From Methylovulum miyakonense HT12 (GTDB lineage: Bacteria; Pseudomonadota; Gammaproteobacteria; Methylococcales; Methylomonadaceae), in assembly GCF_000384075.1 (NCBI RefSeq), contig NZ_KB913025.1:4348187-4412186 (forward strand): a stretch of DNA of 64,000 bases, in the 5' to 3' direction. Within the stretch, counting starts at the first letter, position 1, and every line of letters starts with the position of its first letter. Positions 7,201-27,684 of this stretch are shown piece by piece. The notes under the pieces were generated by a model. The model ran no database searches. It had not been told where the DNA came from and worked only from the letters and a program-made list of their open reading frames with translations. Made by a program: the position numbers and the translations under genes.

Positions 7201-8132
7201 CGGTGTGGTCGGAAACCAGTTACCGGATGCAAGCCCTGCGCGATAATCCCGATTGTGCCTTGCAGGAATTCCAGCGTATCGCCGATGACAACGATCCCGG
7301 CTTACACGCCGCCTTAAGTTTTCCGATCAACGAAGACATCAGCGCACCGTTCCTTAACCTCAGCCGCCCGAAAATCGCCATCTTGCGCGAGCAAGGCGTG
7401 AACGGGCATGTGGAAATGGCGGCCGCGTTTGACCGCGCCGGGTTCGCCAGCATCGACGTGCATTTGAGCGACATCATCCACGGGCGCGTCAGTTTGGCGG
7501 ATTTTGTCGGCCTGGCGGCCTGCGGTGGTTTTTCTTACGGTGACGTATTGGGTGCAGGTGGCGGTTGGGCGAAATCTATTTTGTTCAATGCCCGTGCCCG
7601 CGACGAATTCAGCGCGTTTTTCAACCGTACCGACACTTTTGGTTTAGGCGTGTGCAACGGTTGCCAAATGCTCTCGAATTTGAAAGACATTATCCCAGGT
7701 GCCGATTTGTGGCCGCGCTTTGTCCGTAACATTTCCGAACAATTTGAAGCCCGGGTAGCGATGGTGGAAGTGCAGGCCTCGCCCTCAATTTTGTTCACGG
7801 ACATGGCAGGCACGAGGATCCCTGTGGTCGTGGCGCACGGCGAAGGCCGTGCTGTATTTACAGGTGACCCGCAAATAGCAATCGACGCAGGAGCCGTGGC
7901 CTTGTCGTATATCGACAATTACGGCAACAAAACCACCGCCTTCCCTGCCAACCCTAATGGTTCACCCTCCGGCATCACGGGCCTGACCACCAGCGACGGG
8001 CGTTTCACCATCATGATGCCGCATCCTGAACGCTGTTTCCGGACGCAGCAGCAGTCTTGGCATCCTGACGGTTGGCAAGAATATGGTGCGTGGATGCGGT
8101 TATTCAGAAATGCCAGGGCTTGGGTGGGCTAA
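4269..8132 (+). CDS. purL: Phosphoribosylformylglycinamidine synthase, single-chain type
   Basis: Converts formylglycinamide ribonucleotide to the amidine with glutamine and ATP, the fourth step of purine synthesis. The reading frame is open from 4179, but the family N-terminus ([14 protein letters not shown]) begins at the ATG at 4269, giving 1287 residues, close to the roughly 1295 of enteric PurL. Domains in order are the PurS-like N-domain, a linker with [15 protein letters not shown], the first AIR-synthase-type domain with [18 protein letters not shown], a second one, and a C-terminal class I glutaminase. The glutaminase has its nucleophile in LGVCNGCQM and the His-Glu end in MPHPERCFR. 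It lies alone between bamC and a small membrane protein gene. No PurR-like operator was identified. Confidence 0.97.
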
Positions 8133-8152
8133 CGCAGGCCGCTGTCGTGACG

Positions 8153-8181
8153 TGTACAGGCTACGGCATATCCTTTATACT
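8153..8181 (+). promoter_or_regulatory. Sigma70-like promoter for the 8230 gene
   Basis: TGTACA, 17 bases, then TATACT. The -10 lies about 50 bases before the ATG at 8230. The match to the sigma70 consensus is moderate and the spacing is ideal. Confidence 0.42.
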
Positions 8182-8229
8182 CGTAGCCATGCACACAAAG
8201 ATGAATGCCCTCTTACTATCGGACAAACA

Positions 8230-8679
8230 ATGAATTCGCTGAATTATCAAAAAATTTTCAGGGGACTAACTGCAATCGGCATTCTCATCGTCATTCTCTT
8301 GCCACACATGGTAATTGAATTAACCATTGAACTATTGCACATGATATGGGAATTGACGGTCGAAGCCGGCCATATCATCTTCGAATGGGTAGAAATCAGC
8401 CTTGACACCGTTATTGAGCTGATGTTCGAAACCGATTTGCACAACACCCAGATTATTGTTTTCTATATCATCATGACAGCAATCGGTTTTGGGGTTTATC
8501 GTTTGTCCCTATTTGTACCAGGCATCTTCCGGCGTATCCGTGACAAAACCGTCGCCTTTTACCTGGGGCAAAAAAACTACCTGTCCCTGTATTGGAAAAG
8601 CCTGACGTTAACCCATAAACTTAAATGGGGGGCACTAGCTATTGGCCTCGGTTACTGGTATTTATTTATATTTTTTTAG
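8230..8679 (+). CDS. Small membrane protein of unknown function
   Basis: A 149-residue protein from the ATG at 8230. The frame is open further upstream, but that part overlaps the end of purL and is not protein-like. Hydrophobic segments lie at about residues 12-30, 75-95 and 132-149, the last right at the C-terminus (GYWYLFIFF). Between the first two is an amphipathic run rich in Glu, His and Ile with repeated I-E-L-style motifs (VIELTIELLHMIWELTVEAG). After the second segment comes a basic stretch (FRRIRDKTVAFY). I do not recognise the family and give no function. A promoter-like TGTACA-17-TATACT sits just upstream, so it is probably its own transcription unit. Confidence 0.62.
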   Translation: MNSLNYQKIFRGLTAIGILIVILLPHMVIELTIELLHMIWELTVEAGHIIFEWVEISLDTVIELMFETDLHNTQIIVFYIIMTAIGFGVYRLSLFVPGIFRRIRDKTVAFYLGQKNYLSLYWKSLTLTHKLKWGALAIGLGYWYLFIFF

Positions 8680-8915
8680 TCAAATGCCAACCACAATCCC
8701 CGAAGACTAAAAAACCCGTAACCATAGCCACATGCTGGCAAAAAACCTTGTTGGCAACCTGCCTCCCACTGCTTCAGCAGCCTTGCAAGCTAATAAATTC
8801 GGCATAGTTAGCTTTCCTGTTAAAATGCCTCAAATTTTCATCGCGCCCGTTCCCATCGCTTTGATAACATTCCGCTACCGCAAAACCCCGTCCAGAACCC
8901 ATCGGATTCTCTCTA

Positions 8916-11741
8916 ATGAGTACATTACTTAAACTTTTTCAAGATTCATCTTCCTTATACGGCAGCAACGCCAATTTTATTGAGGACATGTACGAACGGT
9001 TTCTGGAAGACCCGGATTCCGTTGAACCCAGCTGGCAACAACATTTCAAGACCCTGCACCACAACACCGATTTTGAGACCCCCCATAGCCCTATCGTTGA
9101 ACGTTTTGCCAAACTGGCCATCAAGTCACCCAACCGGCTGGCACAAATACAGGGTTTTACCGAAGAAAGCGTCAAAAAACAATCGGCGGTCGCCAGGCTC
9201 ATCAACCACTACCGGGTACGCGGGCACCAGATCGCCAATAACAATCCATTAGGCAAGACCGCGCCGCCACCGCTGGACATGGATCCGTCGTACTACGGTT
9301 TGTCTGAGCCTGACATGGACACCCTGTTCGATACGGGCGCGCTGTATGGCGTTGACCGTTTGCCGCTACGCGATATTATCGCCAACCTCAAGGCGATTTA
9401 TTGTGGCAGTATCGGCTCCGAATACATGCACATCGACGACACCCATATCCGGCGCTGGCTGATCAACCGCCTGGAAAGCCCTAAATCCAACATCGGTTTG
9501 GACGCCGACAAAAAACGTTGGCTGCTAAAATTATTGACGGCGGCGGAAGGCATAGAAAGCCACTTGCAAAATAAGTTCGTTGGCCAAAAACGCTTCTCCC
9601 TGGAAGGCGGCGAATCGCTTATCCCCACCCTTGATGAACTGATCCAACGCTCCGGCGAAAAAGGCGTCAAGGAAATTGTCATTGGTATGGCGCACCGGGG
9701 GCGGCTGAATGTGCTGGTGAACATTCTGGGCAAAAGCCCGGCCAGTTTATTTGAAGAATTTGCCGGCAACTATACTTTGGCGCCCGGCATGCGCTCAGGC
9801 GATGTCAAATACCACATGGGCTTTTCTTCCAATATCGAAACGCCTGGGGGCGCGGTGCATTTGGCCTTGGCCTTTAATCCGTCACACCTGGAAATCATCA
9901 ACCCGGTGGTTGAAGGGTCGGTCAAGGCCCGTCAAGACCGCGCCGAAAAAGATGGCCAAAATACCGTCATCCCGGTATTGATCCACGGTGACGCCGCATT
10001 TGCGGGGCAAGGCATTGTCATGGAAACCTTGAACATGTCGCAAACCCGTGCGTTTTCGACGGGCGGGACGATACACCTCGTCATCAATAACCAGATTGGC
10101 TTTACCACCAGCAACCCGCAGGATGCGCGTTCGACCCCGTACTGCACGGATGTCGCCCGGATGATCCAAGCCCCGGTCTTCCATGTCAACGGCGATGACC
10201 CCGAAGCCGTCCTGTTTGTCACCCAGCTCGCGGTCGATTTCCGCATGGCCTTCAACAAGGACGTGGTGATCGACCTGATTTGTTACCGCCGTTTAGGGCA
10301 CAACGAAGCGGATGAACCGGCGGCGACACAGCCTTTGATGTACAAAAAAATCCGCAAGCGCAAGACCACGCGTAAGCTTTATGCGGAACAACTTATCGGT
10401 GAGGGCATTATCACCAGCGCCCAAGTCCAAAGCATGGCACAAGATTACCAAGACCTGTTGGAGGCCGGTGAGATTGTTTCCAGGCCGGTATTGGACACCA
10501 GCAGTTATTCTTACTCGACCCAATGGACCCAGTTCATTAACAAGCAGTGGGATATGCCGTGCCATACGGCCATATCGCTAGACCGGCTACGTTTTTGTAA
10601 CGACCGGATGCAACGTTTGCCCGCCGGGTTTGAGCTGCATCCGCGCGTCGCCAAAGTGATGGAGAACCGCCGTAAAATGGCGGCCGGTGCGATGCCTTTG
10701 GATTGGGGCTTTGCCGAAAACTTGGCATACGCAAGCTTATTGATGGAAAAGCACAATATCCGTTTGACCGGGCAAGATGTCGGGCGTGGCACGTTTGTAC
10801 ATCGCCATGCCGTGCTGCACAACCAAATCAACAATAAAACCCATACGCCGCTCAAGCACCTGGACAAAGACCAAGGCCGTGCGCAAATTTTTGATTCCTT
10901 GTTATCGGAAGCAGGCGTGCTGGGTTTTGAATATGGCTACAGCACCACGACCCCCAACACGCTCGTGATATGGGAAGCGCAATTTGGCGATTTTGCCAAC
11001 GGCGCACAAGTGCTGATCGACCAATTTATCAGTTCAGGCGAAACCAAATGGGGACGCTTGTGCGGCCTGGTGATGCTGTTGCCGCATGGTTTTGAAGGCC
11101 AAGGGCCCGAACATTCCTCGGCACGGCTAGAACGCTATCTGCAATTGTGCGCCGAACACAATATGCAGGTTTGCTACCCGACAACGCCGGCACAGATTTT
11201 TCATTTGCTGAGACGCCAATTGCTGCGGCCTTTCCGCAAACCGTTGGTTATCATGAGCCCCAAAAGCCTATTGCGGCATAAGCTGGCGGTATCCACATTG
11301 GAAGACCTGACCAGCGGGCAATTCCAGACCATCATCGGCGAACAGGACGCGGTCAACCCCAAAAAAATCACCCGCTTTGTCTTGTGCGCCGGTAAGGTCT
11401 ATTACGAATTATTGGAGACGCGCCGTGAAGCGGACCTCAAACACGTCGCCATTGCCCGTATCGAGCAACTGTACCCATTCCCGTTAGACGCATTCAAGGC
11501 CGAAATTGCCCGATACCCGCAGTTACAGGAATTTGTCTGGTGCCAAGAGGAACCCAAAAACCAAGGGGCTTGGTATAACTCCAGCCACCATTTTATCGAT
11601 AACCTCCCCCCCTCCATCAAAGTCACTTATGCGGGCAGAGAACCTTCGGCCTCCCCCGCTGTCGGTAACTTTCGCGTACATATAGAACAACAAAAAGCCG
11701 TTGTCCAGGCTGCCCTTTATGGAAAATCTTCAGGAAAATAA
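8916..11741 (+). CDS. sucA: 2-oxoglutarate dehydrogenase E1 component
   Basis: Thiamine-diphosphate enzyme that decarboxylates 2-oxoglutarate and passes the succinyl group to the lipoyl domain of SucB, in the TCA cycle. It has 941 residues, the usual length. The N-terminal segment ([20 protein letters not shown]) matches the E2-binding start of the family, which supports the ATG at 8916 although no clear Shine-Dalgarno precedes it. The catalytic region has [13 protein letters not shown], the ThDP/metal segment has [19 protein letters not shown], and the C-terminal pyrimidine-binding part has [20 protein letters not shown]. It is the first gene of sucA-sucB-lpd with only one base between its stop and the sucB start. 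No succinyl-CoA synthetase genes follow in this window. Confidence 0.97.
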
Positions 11742-18498: not shown

Positions 18499-18822
18499 AC
18501 CGTATGGAAGCAAAATCTTGGTTTGGGGACAGAAAAAACCGAAGGGAAATGGAGGGGAACCAACTTAGCTAAGGCATACTATTTCAGCACAAACAGCATC
18601 ACCGAAACGGTCTAGGCATCTGTAAAAATACAAATATGTCATGGCTTAAATCTCTCATAATGGGTGGACGCGCTCCGCTATCGCCGTTATACTCTATAAA
18701 GGCAAGAATACAAATACGAGCAAACTTACTCAAATAAAGTACGGGCAGGCGGCTTGCTTGGCTTAGGCTCCCTGCTGTTAAATATCTATTTTTTTAGAAG
18801 TGTACTTTCCCCGGTGAATATC
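18499..18822 (+). other. Intergenic gap before the HprK-related cassette
   Basis: About 320 bases without a convincing gene. A frame is open from a TTG at 18754, but its first 23 codons look non-coding. The gap carries a sigma70-like promoter at 18665-18693 and, near its left end, TTTGGGGACAGA, a string that resembles the flanks of some REP-type repeats. No terminator hairpin with a T-run was found after the HD-GYP gene. Confidence 0.5.
18665..18693 (+). promoter_or_regulatory. Sigma70-like promoter for the HprK-related cassette
   Basis: TGGACG, 17 bases, then TATACT. The -10 lies about 130 bases before the ATG at 18823 and would drive the four-gene cassette to 21686. It has the same -10 hexamer and spacing as the promoter at 8153-8181. 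Confidence 0.42.
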
Positions 18823-19377
18823 ATGAATAGTCAAAAATTAGAAAATCAACGAGAAGAAAAAATAGACGTAAACAAAAGGCGGCGTTTTTTACAAAAAGCT
18901 GGCGTTGTCGCCCCGATTATATTGACATTTAACAGCCCTACCGCATTTGGTGCCAATGGCTTATGCCTTTCACAGCAACTGTCAGGAAACCAATCACGCA
19001 CAGTTGTCGGAAATTGCCAAGCCGGCCTTTACAGCCCATCTTCATTAGCCCCCAGCCAAACTAATTCCTCGGCATCCGGGCTTTCCCCCTTAAACCAACA
19101 GGCCAGCAATTTCCCTTCTATAGGGGAATATAACCAAGACACTGTTTTTAATAGTGTTTTCCATAGCAGCATGAACACACATAGTTTTGGCAGCATACTT
19201 GCGGAAAGCTTAGAATCACGGGAATCCGTCTACATAACTGCATTTATGAATGCACAAGCGTCTTCATCTTATATTTTGACCTCCAAACAAGTTATCGATT
19301 TGTATGACAACCCTTCAAATCGCCCTGCCGGTTATGTAAGCGACACCGCTTTTCTATTGTCCACATTCCCCCAATAA
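18823..19377 (+). CDS. Exported protein with Tat-like signal, candidate substrate of the HprK-related cassette
   Basis: A 184-residue protein not matched to any family I know. From the ATG at 18823 the N-terminus is charged and carries RRRFLQKAG (residues 19-27), then a hydrophobic stretch (VVAPIILTF) and a likely cleavage site near AFGA (residue 44), which resembles a twin-arginine signal peptide. The mature part is rich in Ser, Asn and Gln and has two cysteines (C48, C65), with no catalytic motif visible. The region near 66-110 is low-complexity. It is the first gene of the cassette, 25 bases before the PqqD-like gene. PqqD-like proteins present peptide substrates to enzymes, so this protein is the natural candidate substrate, but that is inference from position. 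Confidence 0.7.
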   Translation: MNSQKLENQREEKIDVNKRRRFLQKAGVVAPIILTFNSPTAFGANGLCLSQQLSGNQSRTVVGNCQAGLYSPSSLAPSQTNSSASGLSPLNQQASNFPSIGEYNQDTVFNSVFHSSMNTHSFGSILAESLESRESVYITAFMNAQASSSYILTSKQVIDLYDNPSNRPAGYVSDTAFLLSTFPQ

Positions 19378-19402
19378 TCCATCGCAATAATCAAATTCGA
19401 GA

Positions 19403-19696
19403 GTGCTTAAAAATTATACTGTCGATTTACCCCCGAATGGCTGGGTTTGGTTCCGCTTTTGGGAAGATGAGTGTGTCGTTTTTCATGAATTGAGCGGCCA
19501 AATCCATCTAATTGCTGAAATGGGCGCCTTTTTATTAAAATTGATCTCAGAACAGCCCTACACCCGTTCCCAATTATTGGCCCATTTCGTAAACTCTTTC
19601 GAACTATCCATAGATTTCAACCTAGAGGAGTTTTTGGATAAACTGATTATTGAATACCAAAACCTCGGACTATTAACCGTGACGGAAAACAGTTAG
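19403..19696 (+). CDS. PqqD-like protein of the HPr-rel-A system
   Basis: A 97-residue PqqD-type peptide-binding protein. The family motif is visible: WFRFWEDECVVFHELSGQIHL at about residues 14-34, then a helical part with LLKLISEQPYTRSQLLAHF. In PQQ synthesis PqqD carries the precursor peptide to a modifying enzyme. This variant, with the W-x-x-W-x-D/E and SGxxHL pattern, is the kind named for its neighbourhood with HprK-related kinase A. The start is a GTG at 19403 after TCGAGA. The gene ends two bases before the kinase start, so the two are surely co-transcribed. No radical SAM enzyme or LanB-like gene is nearby. Confidence 0.82.
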   Translation: MLKNYTVDLPPNGWVWFRFWEDECVVFHELSGQIHLIAEMGAFLLKLISEQPYTRSQLLAHFVNSFELSIDFNLEEFLDKLIIEYQNLGLLTVTENS

Positions 19697-19698
19697 TC

Positions 19699-20604
19699 GT
19701 GAAATTATCGGCGTCATCAAGAAAATCCATCGTCCAGTCACTTGCCGGCAAAGGTTTATCACTACGAATCGGTTCATTTAATATAAGGTTACGCTCATCT
19801 GTTGGCGCAGTTGCAGATCATTTGATTTGCCTTTACGGCGCATTCAATATCCTAGATGGACTGGACTTCATTGATTTTAATGTCGCCATCAACCCGCCTT
19901 TATCCCTACGCCGGTACCTACGCCCCCAAGTCAATTTTTCATTTGACGGTTATTTTCCCTTCAAACCCTTGCCCTATGCACAGGCTCCCGCCTTTTTCGA
20001 ATGGGGCCTTAACTGGTGCATCGCTAGCCACTCCAACCAATTCCTCATCATCCATGCGGCTGCCGTGGAACTTAACGGGCAGGCCTTTATTTTTGCAGGC
20101 ATCCCAGGAAGCGGCAAAAGCACTCTCAGTGCAGCTATGGTTTGCCGTGGTTGGCGGCTGCTATCGGATGAAATGACCTTACTATGCCTAAGCGATGGCT
20201 TGGCCTATCCAGTGCCACGGCCCGTGAGCCTGAAAAACCAATCCCTTGATATCATCCGCCAATTTTCACCAGACGCCATCATCGGGTCTATCGTTAACGA
20301 CACCTTAAAAGGCACGGTAGGCCACATGCGCCCGCCCGATAGCAGTGTCGAACGTAGCGCCACCCCAGCCCTACCTACCAAAGTGATTTTCCCAAAATAC
20401 AAGCAAGGTTCACAAACTGAGTTGGCCCCACTTTCAAAAGCCAAGGCCTTACTCAAACTGGCGGAAAATTGCTTCAATTATTCTGCGTTAGGCAAAGAAG
20501 GCTTTGATGGTTTAGGGCGGCTATGCGACGCCACTGATTGCTATGATTTTAGCTACAGCAATCTTGATGAAGCTATCGCCTTATTTACGGAACTTGCGTC
20601 TTGA
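19699..20604 (+). CDS. HprK-related kinase A
   Basis: A 301-residue protein related to the kinase core of HPr kinase/phosphorylase. HIHAAAVEL-like sequence (IIHAAAVELNG) leads into the Walker A motif FAGIPGSGKST with K140, followed by the acidic LLSDEMTLL (D157, E158), all as in HprK. There is no N-terminal HPrK regulatory domain, and no ptsH-like gene or phosphotransferase system gene is nearby. The likely reaction is ATP-dependent phosphorylation of a hydroxyl on a protein or peptide, but the substrate is unknown. The start is a GTG at 19699, two bases after the PqqD-like stop, and the TGA overlaps the TTG start of the next gene. Related kinases phosphorylate some lasso peptides, which supports a peptide-modification role. 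Confidence 0.82.
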   Translation: MKLSASSRKSIVQSLAGKGLSLRIGSFNIRLRSSVGAVADHLICLYGAFNILDGLDFIDFNVAINPPLSLRRYLRPQVNFSFDGYFPFKPLPYAQAPAFFEWGLNWCIASHSNQFLIIHAAAVELNGQAFIFAGIPGSGKSTLSAAMVCRGWRLLSDEMTLLCLSDGLAYPVPRPVSLKNQSLDIIRQFSPDAIIGSIVNDTLKGTVGHMRPPDSSVERSATPALPTKVIFPKYKQGSQTELAPLSKAKALLKLAENCFNYSALGKEGFDGLGRLCDATDCYDFSYSNLDEAIALFTELAS

Positions 20605-21686
20605 AAAAAACTAAGATGTCCCTATTGCGCACGGCTTTTATTAAGCCTGAAAGTGTGCTTTCCTTAGATTTACCGCAATGGAGCCAACTAATCAGGCACG
20701 CAAGGCGCGCTAACGTATTGGCACGCCTTGGATTTTATTTGAAAACGGCAGGAATATTGGAAAAAATACCAGCCCAACCGCTGTTGCATATAAAATCCAG
20801 CTTAACCTTTGCCAAAGCTTTTGAATGTTCTTTACAGTGGGAAATCCACTGTATTGAAGCCGCGTTAAAACCACTTGACATACCACTGGTTTTTTTGAAA
20901 GGGTCTGCCTATTATGTTGCCGGAAACAGCGCCGCCAAAGGACGGATATTTTCAGACATAGACATCCTGGTTCCTGAAAATAGGCTACTTGAGGTCGAAG
21001 TCGCGCTAATCAATGCGGGTTGGATAACCAGCACTTTAGACCCCTATGACCAAAAATATTACCGGCAATGGATGCACGAAATCCCGCCCATGCGGCATTT
21101 AAGAAGGCAAACGTCCATTGATGTCCATCATAATATCCTGCCTAAAACCTGTAAGTTCAGCCCTGATGCCAATAAATTATTGGCAAATACCGTACAAATA
21201 CCTGGGACAAATGCCTGGGTGTTGGCTCCCGAAGACCGTATATTACACAGCGCCACCCACTTATTTAACGGCGGGGAATTTGAGCAAGGGTTCCGTGATT
21301 TATCAGACCTGGATTTGCTATTAAAAGAATTTGCTAGCCAAGAAAATTTTTGGACGCAGCTACGCTACAGGGCTGAAGTGCTTAACCAACAAACAGCGTT
21401 GTGCTACGCCCTTCGTTATACCAATAAAATCCTCAATACCCCTATTCCCCCCGAAATACTAAACAACGCGGCTAACCGGAGAAATGCCAAGCTAAGCTTG
21501 TTCTTTCTTGACCTGCTGTTTGTTAGCGCCTTACAGCCCGGCTACGGCTGTCACAATAACCCCTGGACTGAAATCGCGCGTTTCTGCCTTTTTGTCCGCT
21601 CACACTGGTTAAAAATGCCCGTTTCCCTGCTGCTCCCACATTTACTGAAAAAAAGCCTAAAGCAGATGAACAAACTTATTGCATAA
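20601..21686 (+). CDS. Nucleotidyltransferase-family protein of the HprK-related cassette
   Basis: A 361-residue protein of the uncharacterised nucleotidyltransferase group (NTP_transf_5 type). The signature lies at about residues 90-125: VFLKGSAYYV, then GRIFSDIDILVP, with the two metal-binding aspartates in DIDIL. A second conserved part is SIDVHHNIL. Such proteins probably transfer a nucleotide to a small molecule or protein; the substrate is unknown. The TTG at 20601 overlaps the kinase stop, and an ATG at 20616 is a second choice. It is the last gene of the cassette and is followed by a strong terminator at 21723-21760. The C-terminus is basic and hydrophobic (HLLKKSLKQMNKLIA), perhaps membrane-associated. 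Confidence 0.78.
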   Translation: MKKTKMSLLRTAFIKPESVLSLDLPQWSQLIRHARRANVLARLGFYLKTAGILEKIPAQPLLHIKSSLTFAKAFECSLQWEIHCIEAALKPLDIPLVFLKGSAYYVAGNSAAKGRIFSDIDILVPENRLLEVEVALINAGWITSTLDPYDQKYYRQWMHEIPPMRHLRRQTSIDVHHNILPKTCKFSPDANKLLANTVQIPGTNAWVLAPEDRILHSATHLFNGGEFEQGFRDLSDLDLLLKEFASQENFWTQLRYRAEVLNQQTALCYALRYTNKILNTPIPPEILNNAANRRNAKLSLFFLDLLFVSALQPGYGCHNNPWTEIARFCLFVRSHWLKMPVSLLLPHLLKKSLKQMNKLIA

Positions 21687-21722
21687 CCCGTAATCAATTA
21701 AACCAAGGAACAAGGGTTCGCC

Positions 21723-21760
21723 CCATAAAAAAACCAGGCTATTGCCTGGTTTTTTTATGG
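21723..21760. terminator. Bidirectional rho-independent terminator
   Basis: Inverted repeat with arms AACCAGGC and GCCTGGTT around a short loop, flanked by A-runs on the left and T-runs on the right. It therefore works on both strands: for the HprK-related cassette (plus) and for the spy-like gene (minus), whose ends face each other here. Confidence 0.9.
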
Positions 21761-21764
21761 GCGT

Positions 21765-25206: not shown

Positions 25207-27684
25207 CTAGGCGAAGATATAATCCGCCAACACCGTATGGTCCGCGCCTTGTAATGAACCGACCAAGGTCAATTCATTGGCCGTGACCTGTGCCCCGGCA
25301 TCAGCTGATTGGAATAGAAACACGCCGCTATCCGTGCCGTTATCCACCACAAATAAGCGCGTGTCACCGACTGCGTATGCGGAAGATGCAGAACCTATCC
25401 TCGCCGCCGCTGAAGCCGTGTCGATGCCCCCCACAATATCCGGCGTGATGATGACCAGTTCCGCCTGCTTCGAAAACGTTACGGGGAGGTTGCTAACAGT
25501 CGGGGAATCAATGACATGGTCGCCATCGCCAATCTTAAGTTCGGTGTTACCATCTTTGATCCTTAAATGGTCAAAACCCGTTGTAAAGTCAGAGACCACA
25601 TCAGCACCGCCAACCGTTGTAGAAAACACAAATATATCGTTGCCAGCCCCCCCTGCCAGGGTATCGGCACCTTCGAAACCACGCAAGATGTTGTTGCCAC
25701 TGTTGCCCTGCAAGTTATTGTTTAGCTCGTTCCCGTTGGCATTGGCATTAGCCGCCCCTTGTAAAATCAGGTTTTCCAGGTTTGCCCCCAAAACCCAAGT
25801 GCTATTGGATAGCACCGTATCGGTACCGCCAAGGCTATCCTCAATAATAACGTCGTCACTTTGGTTGACTTCATAAGTGTCATCACCTGCGCCACCCGTC
25901 ATGGTGTCCGCACCCAAGCCGCCAATAAGCTGGTCATTCCCTAAATCACCTTTCAGCGTATCATTCCCTAGATCGCCATTTAAGATGTTATTGCCGACGT
26001 TGCCTTGCAGGTAGTTGTTATCGGCGTTACCTGCCGCATTAATATTGTCAAACCCCATCAAGACCAGGTTTTCCAAATTCAAACCTAAGCTCCAATCCAA
26101 CGTAGCGTAGACCGTATCAGTTCCACTTAACGCATCTTCTATAATATTGTCGCCGACATCATTGGCACCATAACTGTCATCGCCTATACCACCAGTCATT
26201 TTGTCGACACCTGCGCCACCATACAGTCCATCGTTACCGGAACCGCCTTCTAAGGTGTCCGCGCCAGCAAAGCCATAGAGCGTATTGTCGAAGGTGTTGC
26301 CCGTGATAACATTATCCAGACCATTACCCGCCCCTATTTTCGCGTTAATGCCCATTAACAATAAATTTTCGACGTTTGCGCTTAAAGTATGGCCTATCCA
26401 AGACTGCACCCAGTCAGTCCCTTCATTGGCTTGTTCGATGACCGTGTCCCCTGCATTGTCAACGACATACGTGTCATTGCCCTTGCCACCCGTCATTTTA
26501 TCCGCGCCAATGCCGCCATCCAGTTTATTGTCGCCCAATCCCCCCGTAATTTCATTGTTCAAATCATTGCCTGTGCCGTTGGTATTGAGGCTATTCCAAA
26601 GGAACAGCTTTTCAATATTCCCTAACAACGCATAACTGCCATAGGAATAAACGGTATCTATCCCAGAATTGGCATTTTCCACTACTTTATCCGCCGGAAC
26701 TTCCACGGTATAGCTATCGTCACCCAAACCGCCTTTTAAGGTGTCAATCCCGCCGCCGCCCACAATAACATCGTTATAGGATGAGCCGAATATCAAATCA
26801 TCTTGGGCATTGCCAATGACTTGCCCGGCGTTGCCAGTGATAAAAAGGGTTTCGACATAATCCGGCATCTGGTAGGACTTAAGAAAGCCGCCTATACCAG
26901 GGGAGTGCAGAAAAATAGTATCCGCATTACCTTCACCCATTTTCTCTATCACCGTATCATAAGGGTTGCCATTATCTACGTCCGTATAATCCACGAAATA
27001 GATGTCATCGCCCTGCCCTCCTATCATGGTGTCTTGCCACGCCCCCCCATCTAGCCAGTTATTACCCGAATTGCCTATCAGGGTTTGGAAAAAAATGCCC
27101 ATGACGATTTTAAGGTTGGCAGTACCTAGCAGGATGATGGTCTCTACCCCATGGCTTACATCCATATCCTCAGTGAAACTCACGGTGGTCTTGACGGTAT
27201 CGTTAATGCCATCGCTCGGATTGCCATCAACATAATCGTCGATGACATCATCCACATTATCCACATAATAGGTGTCATCGCCCTTGCCACCGACCATTTC
27301 GTCGGCACCCGCCTTGCCGTCAAAAGTATTTGCACCACTGTTACCGACCAAACGGTTATTAAGGCCATTACCCGTAGCGCTCAAATTAGCACTCCCGGTC
27401 AACGTCAGATTTTCGACATTGGCGGTCAAGGTATAACTGATGGATGAATTAACCAGATCGCCACCTTCATTGACGGCTTCCACCACCTTATCTTGGGCAT
27501 TATCGACAAAGTAAATGTCATCACCCGTGCCGCCGTCCATATAATCGGCTCCAGACCCCCCATCCAAGTAATCATTGCCACCCAAACCAAACAAGTTGTC
27601 ATTTCCGCCTAAGCCAGATATAAAATCGCTGGCGGATGTGCCAAACAGACTATTAGCCCCCGATGTACCTATAAGTATTGCCAT
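25207..27684 (-). CDS. Secreted RTX-type calcium-binding repeat protein
   Basis: An 825-residue protein built of haemolysin-type calcium-binding repeats. The N-terminus starts directly with repeat sequence (GTSGANSLFG, GGNDNLFGLGGNDYLDGG) and has no Sec signal. It then runs through about seven long units of around 100 residues, each with LENL-type strands, GNSGNN and GGAGDDTYxVDN. The C-terminal part (about 690-825) has no such repeats and ends LVGSLQGADHTVLADYIFA, probably the type I secretion signal. The ATG at 27684 follows AGGGGATA. No HlyB/HlyD/TolC genes lie nearby. It has a clear paralogue at 61696-64000, with nearly the same C-terminal 50 residues. Function may be surface or matrix structure; no enzymatic domain is visible. 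Confidence 0.85.
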   Translation of the reverse strand: MAILIGTSGANSLFGTSASDFISGLGGNDNLFGLGGNDYLDGGSGADYMDGGTGDDIYFVDNAQDKVVEAVNEGGDLVNSSISYTLTANVENLTLTGSANLSATGNGLNNRLVGNSGANTFDGKAGADEMVGGKGDDTYYVDNVDDVIDDYVDGNPSDGINDTVKTTVSFTEDMDVSHGVETIILLGTANLKIVMGIFFQTLIGNSGNNWLDGGAWQDTMIGGQGDDIYFVDYTDVDNGNPYDTVIEKMGEGNADTIFLHSPGIGGFLKSYQMPDYVETLFITGNAGQVIGNAQDDLIFGSSYNDVIVGGGGIDTLKGGLGDDSYTVEVPADKVVENANSGIDTVYSYGSYALLGNIEKLFLWNSLNTNGTGNDLNNEITGGLGDNKLDGGIGADKMTGGKGNDTYVVDNAGDTVIEQANEGTDWVQSWIGHTLSANVENLLLMGINAKIGAGNGLDNVITGNTFDNTLYGFAGADTLEGGSGNDGLYGGAGVDKMTGGIGDDSYGANDVGDNIIEDALSGTDTVYATLDWSLGLNLENLVLMGFDNINAAGNADNNYLQGNVGNNILNGDLGNDTLKGDLGNDQLIGGLGADTMTGGAGDDTYEVNQSDDVIIEDSLGGTDTVLSNSTWVLGANLENLILQGAANANANGNELNNNLQGNSGNNILRGFEGADTLAGGAGNDIFVFSTTVGGADVVSDFTTGFDHLRIKDGNTELKIGDGDHVIDSPTVSNLPVTFSKQAELVIITPDIVGGIDTASAAARIGSASSAYAVGDTRLFVVDNGTDSGVFLFQSADAGAQVTANELTLVGSLQGADHTVLADYIFA

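Follow-up and report, generated by a model that had tools for sequence, protein, structure and literature searches.

A four-gene cassette in the Methylovulum miyakonense HT12 genome

We analysed a gene cassette in a 64,000-nucleotide stretch of DNA (hereafter the window) from Methylovulum miyakonense HT12, whose genome is a 4.69-Mb contig. The cassette encodes an exported protein, a PqqD-type protein taken as a recognition element of the kind found for ribosomally synthesized and post-translationally modified peptides (RiPPs), an HprK-related kinase and a nucleotidyltransferase (NTase; Table 1). A reading made from the DNA letters alone (the original prediction) had described these as four tightly packed genes on one strand, enclosed by a single promoter and a strong terminator, and had suggested a modification system for the exported protein. 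Re-derivation of the open reading frames (ORFs) in 18823-21686 returned the same four plus-strand genes, with intergenic gaps of 25, 2 and -4 bases. The terminator held up as well (fold z-score -5.9; 0 of 200 shuffles equally stable), while the promoter did not, since the 7 promoter-like sites are no excess over the 6.0 +/- 2.2 found in shuffles. The frame of the exported protein stays open upstream, where a TTG at 18754 would give a protein of 207 aa; the start of the nearest relative (locus L049) coincides with the ATG used here.

Table 1. Features of the cassette, in window coordinates.
Feature	Position	Strand	Assignment
Gene 1, exported putative substrate, 184 aa, ATG start	18823-19377	+	Tat-like leader, disordered tail with serine motif, helical C-terminal domain; no family model
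Gene 2, PqqD-type protein, 97 aa, GTG start, taken as RiPP recognition element (RRE)	19403-19696	+	TIGR04353 PqqD_rel_X
Gene 3, HprK-related kinase A, 301 aa, GTG start	19699-20604	+	TIGR04352 HprK_rel_A
Gene 4, NTP_transf_5 NTase, 361 aa, TTG start	20601-21686	+	PF14907
Intrinsic terminator, 18-pair stem	21722-21761	+	Fold analysis against shuffles
Leader of the exported protein, residues 19-44	18877-18954	+	R20-R21 and hydrophobic stretch; common to type I and type II substrates
Putative acceptor motif C48-L-S50-Q-Q-L-S54-G-N-Q-S58	18964-18996	+	S50 codon 18970-18972, S54 codon 18982-18984

The three enzyme-related genes match curated models well above their cut-offs, in agreement with the families first proposed for them: the PqqD-type protein scores 49.5 bits (cut-off 35), the kinase, for which HprK core motifs had been noted, 382.2 bits (cut-off 200), and the NTase 171.7 bits (cut-off 31.2). 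The exported protein has no Pfam match and one chance-level NCBIfam match (E 0.058). Among 78 exported proteins of the family searched against Pfam and NCBIfam, matches were confined to single members (best E 0.0013), so that no model convincingly matched the family, and the 13 NCBIfam families matched at E 0.1 include no PEP-CTERM model.

The four genes recur as a conserved unit

To define the cassette across genomes, we compared 105 loci, namely the window, 24 loci from relatives and 80 named loci (the best 80 of 450 from a kinase scan), the last including Methylococcaceae, Thiobacillus, Sulfuricella, Nitrosospira, Noviherbaspirillum, Massilia, Dechloromonas, Malonomonas and others. The closest by kinase among these best 80 of 450 is a Methylovulum metagenome-assembled genome (MAG), with 76% identity. 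Removal of L064, which lacks a full kinase ORF, and of 6 duplicates left 98 non-redundant loci. PqqD and the NTase are each present in 97 of these, and 96 have the exported protein. Gene order, whose loss had been set beforehand as an outcome that would refute the original prediction, is kept in 94 of the 98, with the exported-protein gene directly upstream. A grouping this regular is not a matter of chance. Elsewhere, the substrate gene lies on the opposite side of the cassette in L100 and L108, L115 ends at a contig edge, and L100 (5629-11038) has two tandem kinase-NTase pairs around one substrate gene, with a single PqqD gene detected.

At the level of genomes, the kinase model TIGR04352 exceeds its cut-off in 26 of 61 relatives and in 28 of 276 genomes of the class. 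Of the 26 cassette genomes among the 61 relatives, 25 have the exported protein, vs 2 of the 35 others. The one cassette genome without it, G049, is cut by the edge of a contig of 4,328 bases. As for the two extras, a contig edge again accounts for G014, and in G015 the match covers the cargo region only, inside a 666-aa frame. Judged by gene content and order, the four genes are a conserved unit, and the same set recurs in many environmental bacteria carrying exopolysaccharide genes. Two genomes of the same order (G041 and G055), which also have an exosortase and the DegP/trypsin-like protease described below, encode a weaker kinase relative (54.8 and 44.2 bits; loci L028 and L030) and may represent a further branch of the system.

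Two serines behind a Tat-like leader are the only invariant residues of the exported protein

Our main alignment comprised 78 substrates (the window and 77 named loci), with a mean column identity of 13% and a median pairwise identity of 29%. The family commonly has a Tat-like leader, after which the sequence diverges strongly. The only invariant columns are S50 and S54 (window numbering; 78 of 78). The next most kept are N143 (76), R20, R21 and C48 (75 each), and S38 and S58 (70 each); every other Ser or Thr of the 184-aa protein is kept in at most 63 of the 78, the highest being T35. Both positions of the R20-R21 pair are Arg in 75 of 78 substrates, the hydrophobic stretch that follows contains P-I-I-L-T-F-N-S, and the leader is likely cleaved near AFG-A. 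TatC was found in the window genome. A separate alignment based on hidden Markov models held 96 substrates, 90 of which are of type I, the kind found in the window, and 6 of another kind. Among the 90, the serines S1, S2 and S3 are kept in 89, 90 and 77, the twin basic pair in 86, and the flanking cysteines C1 and C2 in 85 and 84.

In the AlphaFold model of the exported protein, the block-wise predicted local distance difference test (pLDDT) is 46-63 for residues 1-60 and above 90 for residues 101-180, which places the invariant serines in a probably flexible tail right after the leader. Going by the model, the S50/S54 segment is likely disordered, and it is the folded part that varies. A search of the model against the PDB gave no match (best E 6.3), and therefore no function was read from the fold. 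Two other readings of the conserved residues were rejected. An N-x-S sequon for N-glycosylation does not fit, as the Asn is found in 70 of 96 and is replaced in part of the family while S-x3-S stays; nor does a strict lasso-type RRE proline motif in the leader, the proline being kept in just 45 of 96. The YxxP leader motif is likewise absent from the window protein, in which V28, not Tyr or Trp, stands three residues ahead of P31.

The leader and the serine spacing are shared by dissimilar substrates

The 6 remaining substrates of the 96 (type II) carry the same leader (RR...PVVLTLRSG) on a dissimilar body without the tail motif. When these six were aligned, two serines near the C-terminus were invariant, and they too are four apart. 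A search for type II proteins covered 251 genomes of the order, of which 43 had a match; 30 loci were fetched and inspected, and a substrate ORF was present in 28 (type II in 16, type I-like in 4, a third kind in 7 and a short frame in 1). All 16 full-length type II proteins, 11 of which were not used to build the search model, have an S-C-x-x-S ending that begins 7-17 residues from the C-terminus, and PqqD or kinase genes adjoin 13 of the 16. Of the 7 proteins of the third kind (6 distinct), all but that of L159 have S-x3-S close to the C-terminus. A quick tree built from 106 kinase rows (89 type I, 12 type II, 3 type III and 2 without substrate) puts each of the three types on one side of a branch (Shimodaira-Hasegawa-like approximate likelihood ratio test support of 99, 87 and 100 for types I, II and III), and the substrate type changes twice in all, the minimum.

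Leader-guided modification predicts this combination, in which the leader is shared, the cargo varies and an acceptor-like pair stays constant, and we infer that the S-x3-S pair is the modification acceptor. The idea of a modification system for the exported protein thus gains support from comparative sequence data, in that gene order is kept, the substrate tracks the cassette, and the sole invariant residues of the main alignment are two serines. Beyond what was first proposed, these comparisons indicate that the leader is the common part and the cargo is exchangeable, and that the system is connected with genes for exosortase A and exopolysaccharide (see below).

Enzyme active sites are kept

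In the kinase, H119, the P-loop residues K140-S141 and D157-E158 are invariant in 24 of 24 sequences, and the kinase profile matches the HPr kinase structures 1jb1 and 2qmh (E 0.0014). Kinases of the PadeK type require His-Lys-Asp-Asp (PMC9266682); by comparison, a Glu would take the fourth position in the cassette kinase. In the NTase, D119, D121 and D174 are invariant across 53 of 53 sequences. Its structure model (pLDDT 92) has no PDB match at E 0.001 or better and resembles minimal NTases at low significance (5uvd, 0.0025; MenT1, 0.0029; ANT(2'')-Ia, 0.097; TM1012, 0.55). The PqqD profile weakly matches the lasso-peptide PqqD/B1 chains TfuB1, 9x90 and TbiB1 (E 0.018-0.047), below three designed-protein matches that we take as composition artefacts.

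The cassette co-occurs with exosortase and a DegP/trypsin-like protease

An exosortase (PF09721) is found in 26 of 28 cassette genomes vs 68 of 248 others in the class sample, and in 23 of 26 vs 16 of 35 among relatives. Of the 105 loci, 24 have a DegP/trypsin-like protease gene in the flanking DNA that was fetched, in most cases immediately upstream. In the class sample, this protease occurs in 24 of 28 cassette genomes vs 12 of 248 others (Fisher p ~1e-21, shared ancestry ignored), and among exosortase genomes only, in 23 of 26 with the cassette vs 9 of 68 without. For relatives the numbers are 24 of 26 vs 7 of 35, one of the 7 (G014) having a substrate. Cassette and protease share a contig in 17 class genomes, lying within about 5 kb of each other in 12, at 72 and 142 kb in G177 and G304, and further apart in G000, G029 and G273.

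The protease also keeps company with exosortase genes: in 8 of 31 protease-bearing relatives (2 of the 8 lack a cassette), the start-to-start distance between protease and exosortase is 1.2-2.3 kb. In the window genome the protease gene comes first in a series of genes on one strand, which also includes polysaccharide-export-type genes, an EpsB_2 sugar transferase and exosortase A (TIGR03109, 311.9 bits; cut-off 208). One such protease (L168, 6205-6993, minus strand) has no NCBIfam model over cut-off, and the neighbourhood of the protease alternates between cassette and exosortase A genes. Adjacency of the cassette to exopolysaccharide genes is partial and was rejected as a general rule. Among 119 nearest neighbours, 13 match XrtA-system glycosyltransferase models, 13 match generic GT4 models and 9 match prfA; some of the XrtA-system matches are probably generic, because as many match the GT4 models. 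A second set of 60 nearest neighbours gave single XrtA-system matches (2 of 181 nearest-neighbour ORFs, at contig ends, were excluded from these scans). At 9 of 105 loci (one pair being the same locus), the flanking DNA carries a gene for a 'CGIVGIF' amidotransferase; the one that was scanned belongs with the XrtA-system model TIGR03108 (1066 bits) and reaches 270.7 bits against a cut-off of 525 with the lasso cyclase model.

Elsewhere in the window, 25207-27684 (minus strand) encodes an 825-aa protein with many RTX calcium-binding nonapeptide repeats (11 PF00353 stretches).

Proposed function and alternatives

Taken together, the cassette probably serves to modify serines of its own exported protein under guidance of the leader. 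A serine-modifying system fits because two serines in a disordered tail are the only invariant residues. In the mechanism that we propose, the PqqD protein would bind the leader in the cytoplasm, the HprK-type kinase would phosphorylate S50 and/or S54, and the NTase would extend the phosphate by a nucleotidyl or hexose group, in line with what is reported for PsmN acting on pseudomycoidin. Tat would then export the modified protein and signal peptidase would remove its leader. In the envelope, the tagged protein would be a target or partner of a dedicated DegP/trypsin-like protease and of the exosortase A machinery for exopolysaccharide. Tat carries folded proteins, and ATP-dependent marking in the cytoplasm before export would suit such a route. 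By analogy, the NTase step is the weakest of the proposal, because LppN, the NTase of the linear polyphosphorylated peptides (LPP) of Bacillota, showed no activity in a heterologous host; its deletion changed nothing detectable in the LPP system (PMC13381572).

Several further observations weigh against this proposal. The Tat model TIGR01409 matches 1 of 78 substrates (E 0.04), and the low retention of the RRE-motif proline in the leaders has to be counted here as well. In the window genome, more than 200 kb separate the cassette from each of the two exosortase genes, and the co-occurrence statistics ignore shared ancestry. Not every locus is complete: L034 is without the NTase, and L093 (Nitrosospira MAG, 8000-9921) has kinase and NTase with no PqqD or substrate gene found upstream. 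Three type II loci show no cassette gene within the short stretch fetched, namely L154, L158 and, at the end of its contig, L143. Finally, the conserved serines could be kept for another reason. As separate observations, L093 is possibly a decayed or re-used cassette; L154 and L158, which end in S-C-W-A-S and in which no PqqD, kinase or NTase gene was detected in the 3.3-3.6 kb fetched, may be substrates placed away from their own cassette.

Alternatives differ mainly in what the final mark would be. It is possible, though we do not favour it, that the exported protein is the substrate and that the mark is a nucleotidylation on serine or phosphoserine with no sugar involved. The NTase-fold proteins MenT1, ANT(2'')-Ia and TM1012 among the low-significance structure matches and the fully kept Asp triad point this way, and PsmN itself may be a nucleotidyltransferase, with the hexose coming from a host enzyme (PMC9266682); hexose adducts are nevertheless the reported outcome for the related PsmK/PsmN pair (PMC9266682), and linkage to polysaccharide genes fits sugar transfer. 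A bolder variant, which we regard as rather unlikely, is a protein-exopolysaccharide conjugate in which the phosphoserines at S50/S54 would be extended with sugar by the NTase, the exported tail would prime or anchor the exopolysaccharide of the exosortase A locus, and the protease would trim the protein; if true, it would be an RRE-guided, phosphate-bridged joining of secreted proteins to the matrix in Gram-negative bacteria.

That phosphorylation alone is the final mark, with the NTase having a regulatory role or some small molecule as its separate target, would agree with the silent LppN deletion in LPP (PMC13381572) and with the locus that does without an NTase (L034). The NTase is, however, kept in nearly all loci and its catalytic residues are invariant in all 53 sequences compared, which makes this reading a distinctly improbable one. 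Yet another explanation takes the exported protein to be a co-regulated neighbour, with the kinase targeting, for example, HPr or NPr and the serines kept for folding or for disulfide geometry around C48. HprK homologues usually act on HPr, and C48 and a second Cys do flank the serines; against this, the serine pair lies in a low-confidence, probably disordered segment of the model, S-x3-S stands at opposite ends of dissimilar bodies across substrate classes whereas the leader is common, and a PqqD-type protein implies leader binding. We consider this explanation very doubtful. Were the exported protein modified on its paired serines under guidance of the leader, a gene system for which the names of the NCBI models give no substrate would acquire a specific substrate, a candidate site of modification and a protease partner.

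Comparison with known systems

Within the NCBIfam HPr-rel-A system (TIGR04352, TIGR04353), genes 2 and 3 exceed both curated cut-offs; the comparison was made by model names, which state no substrate; the models' longer comments may describe neighbours. Our search of the open-access literature, in part among the matches listed, found no description of the system, the LPP paper being an analogue only. The portion of PMC7470986 available to us does not mention a kinase, and that of PMC1569441 does not mention PqqD, trypsin, serine protease or nucleotidyltransferase, its 6 kinase passages including histidine kinase.

With PEP-CTERM/exosortase A systems, the cassette shares a genomic setting, in that cassette genomes mostly have an exosortase and the partner protease can adjoin it. 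Unlike PEP-CTERM proteins, the exported proteins have no PEP-CTERM model match, and there is no exosortase in the cassette. The paeninodin and pseudomycoidin pathways (PadeK, PsmK/PsmN) likewise use an HprK-type kinase, there phosphorylating a precursor serine, and in pseudomycoidin the NTase-like PsmN, or a host enzyme after it, adds hexoses to the phosphoserine (PMC9266682). Type II substrates resemble the targets of lasso-peptide tailoring in carrying their serines at the C-terminus. Unlike lasso peptides, the cassette substrate is an exported protein of about 145-340 aa, and neither a macrolactam synthetase (C) nor a B2 protease was found in the window cassette or elsewhere among the nine proteins scanned from the window, a set that includes the genes adjoining the cassette.

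LPP loci (LppA/K/B/S/D/N) are the closest parallel. They comprise the RRE LppB, the kinase LppK, which phosphorylates S3 of the LppA core, and the NTase LppN, and they are sited in capsular or polysaccharide loci; LPP and paeninodins have been called restricted to Bacillota (PMC13381572). The main text of that paper has 0 mentions of Proteobacteria, Pseudomonadota, exosortase or Tat. LPP has features of its own, among them a SipW-like peptidase, an MsbA-like exporter and leaders with YxxP; the core is 45 aa long in the one studied, and precursors range from 35 to 200 aa (PMC13381572). Neither a SipW-like peptidase nor an MsbA-like exporter is present among the nine window proteins scanned, or, in relatives, among the 25 most frequent neighbour families listed per scan. 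Unlike LPP, the cassette has a Tat-like leader, a cargo with a confidently modelled helical domain, and links to an S1-type protease and exosortase A. Like LPP, it has the set of a discrete RRE, an HprK-like kinase and an NTP transferase, together with a conserved N-terminal leader, a variable C-terminal part and a serine just after the leader. These parallels suggest that RiPP-style leader recognition may also be used on full-size exported proteins, the export signal doubling as the recognition leader, in a cassette that is tied to exopolysaccharide genes as the LPP of Bacillota is.

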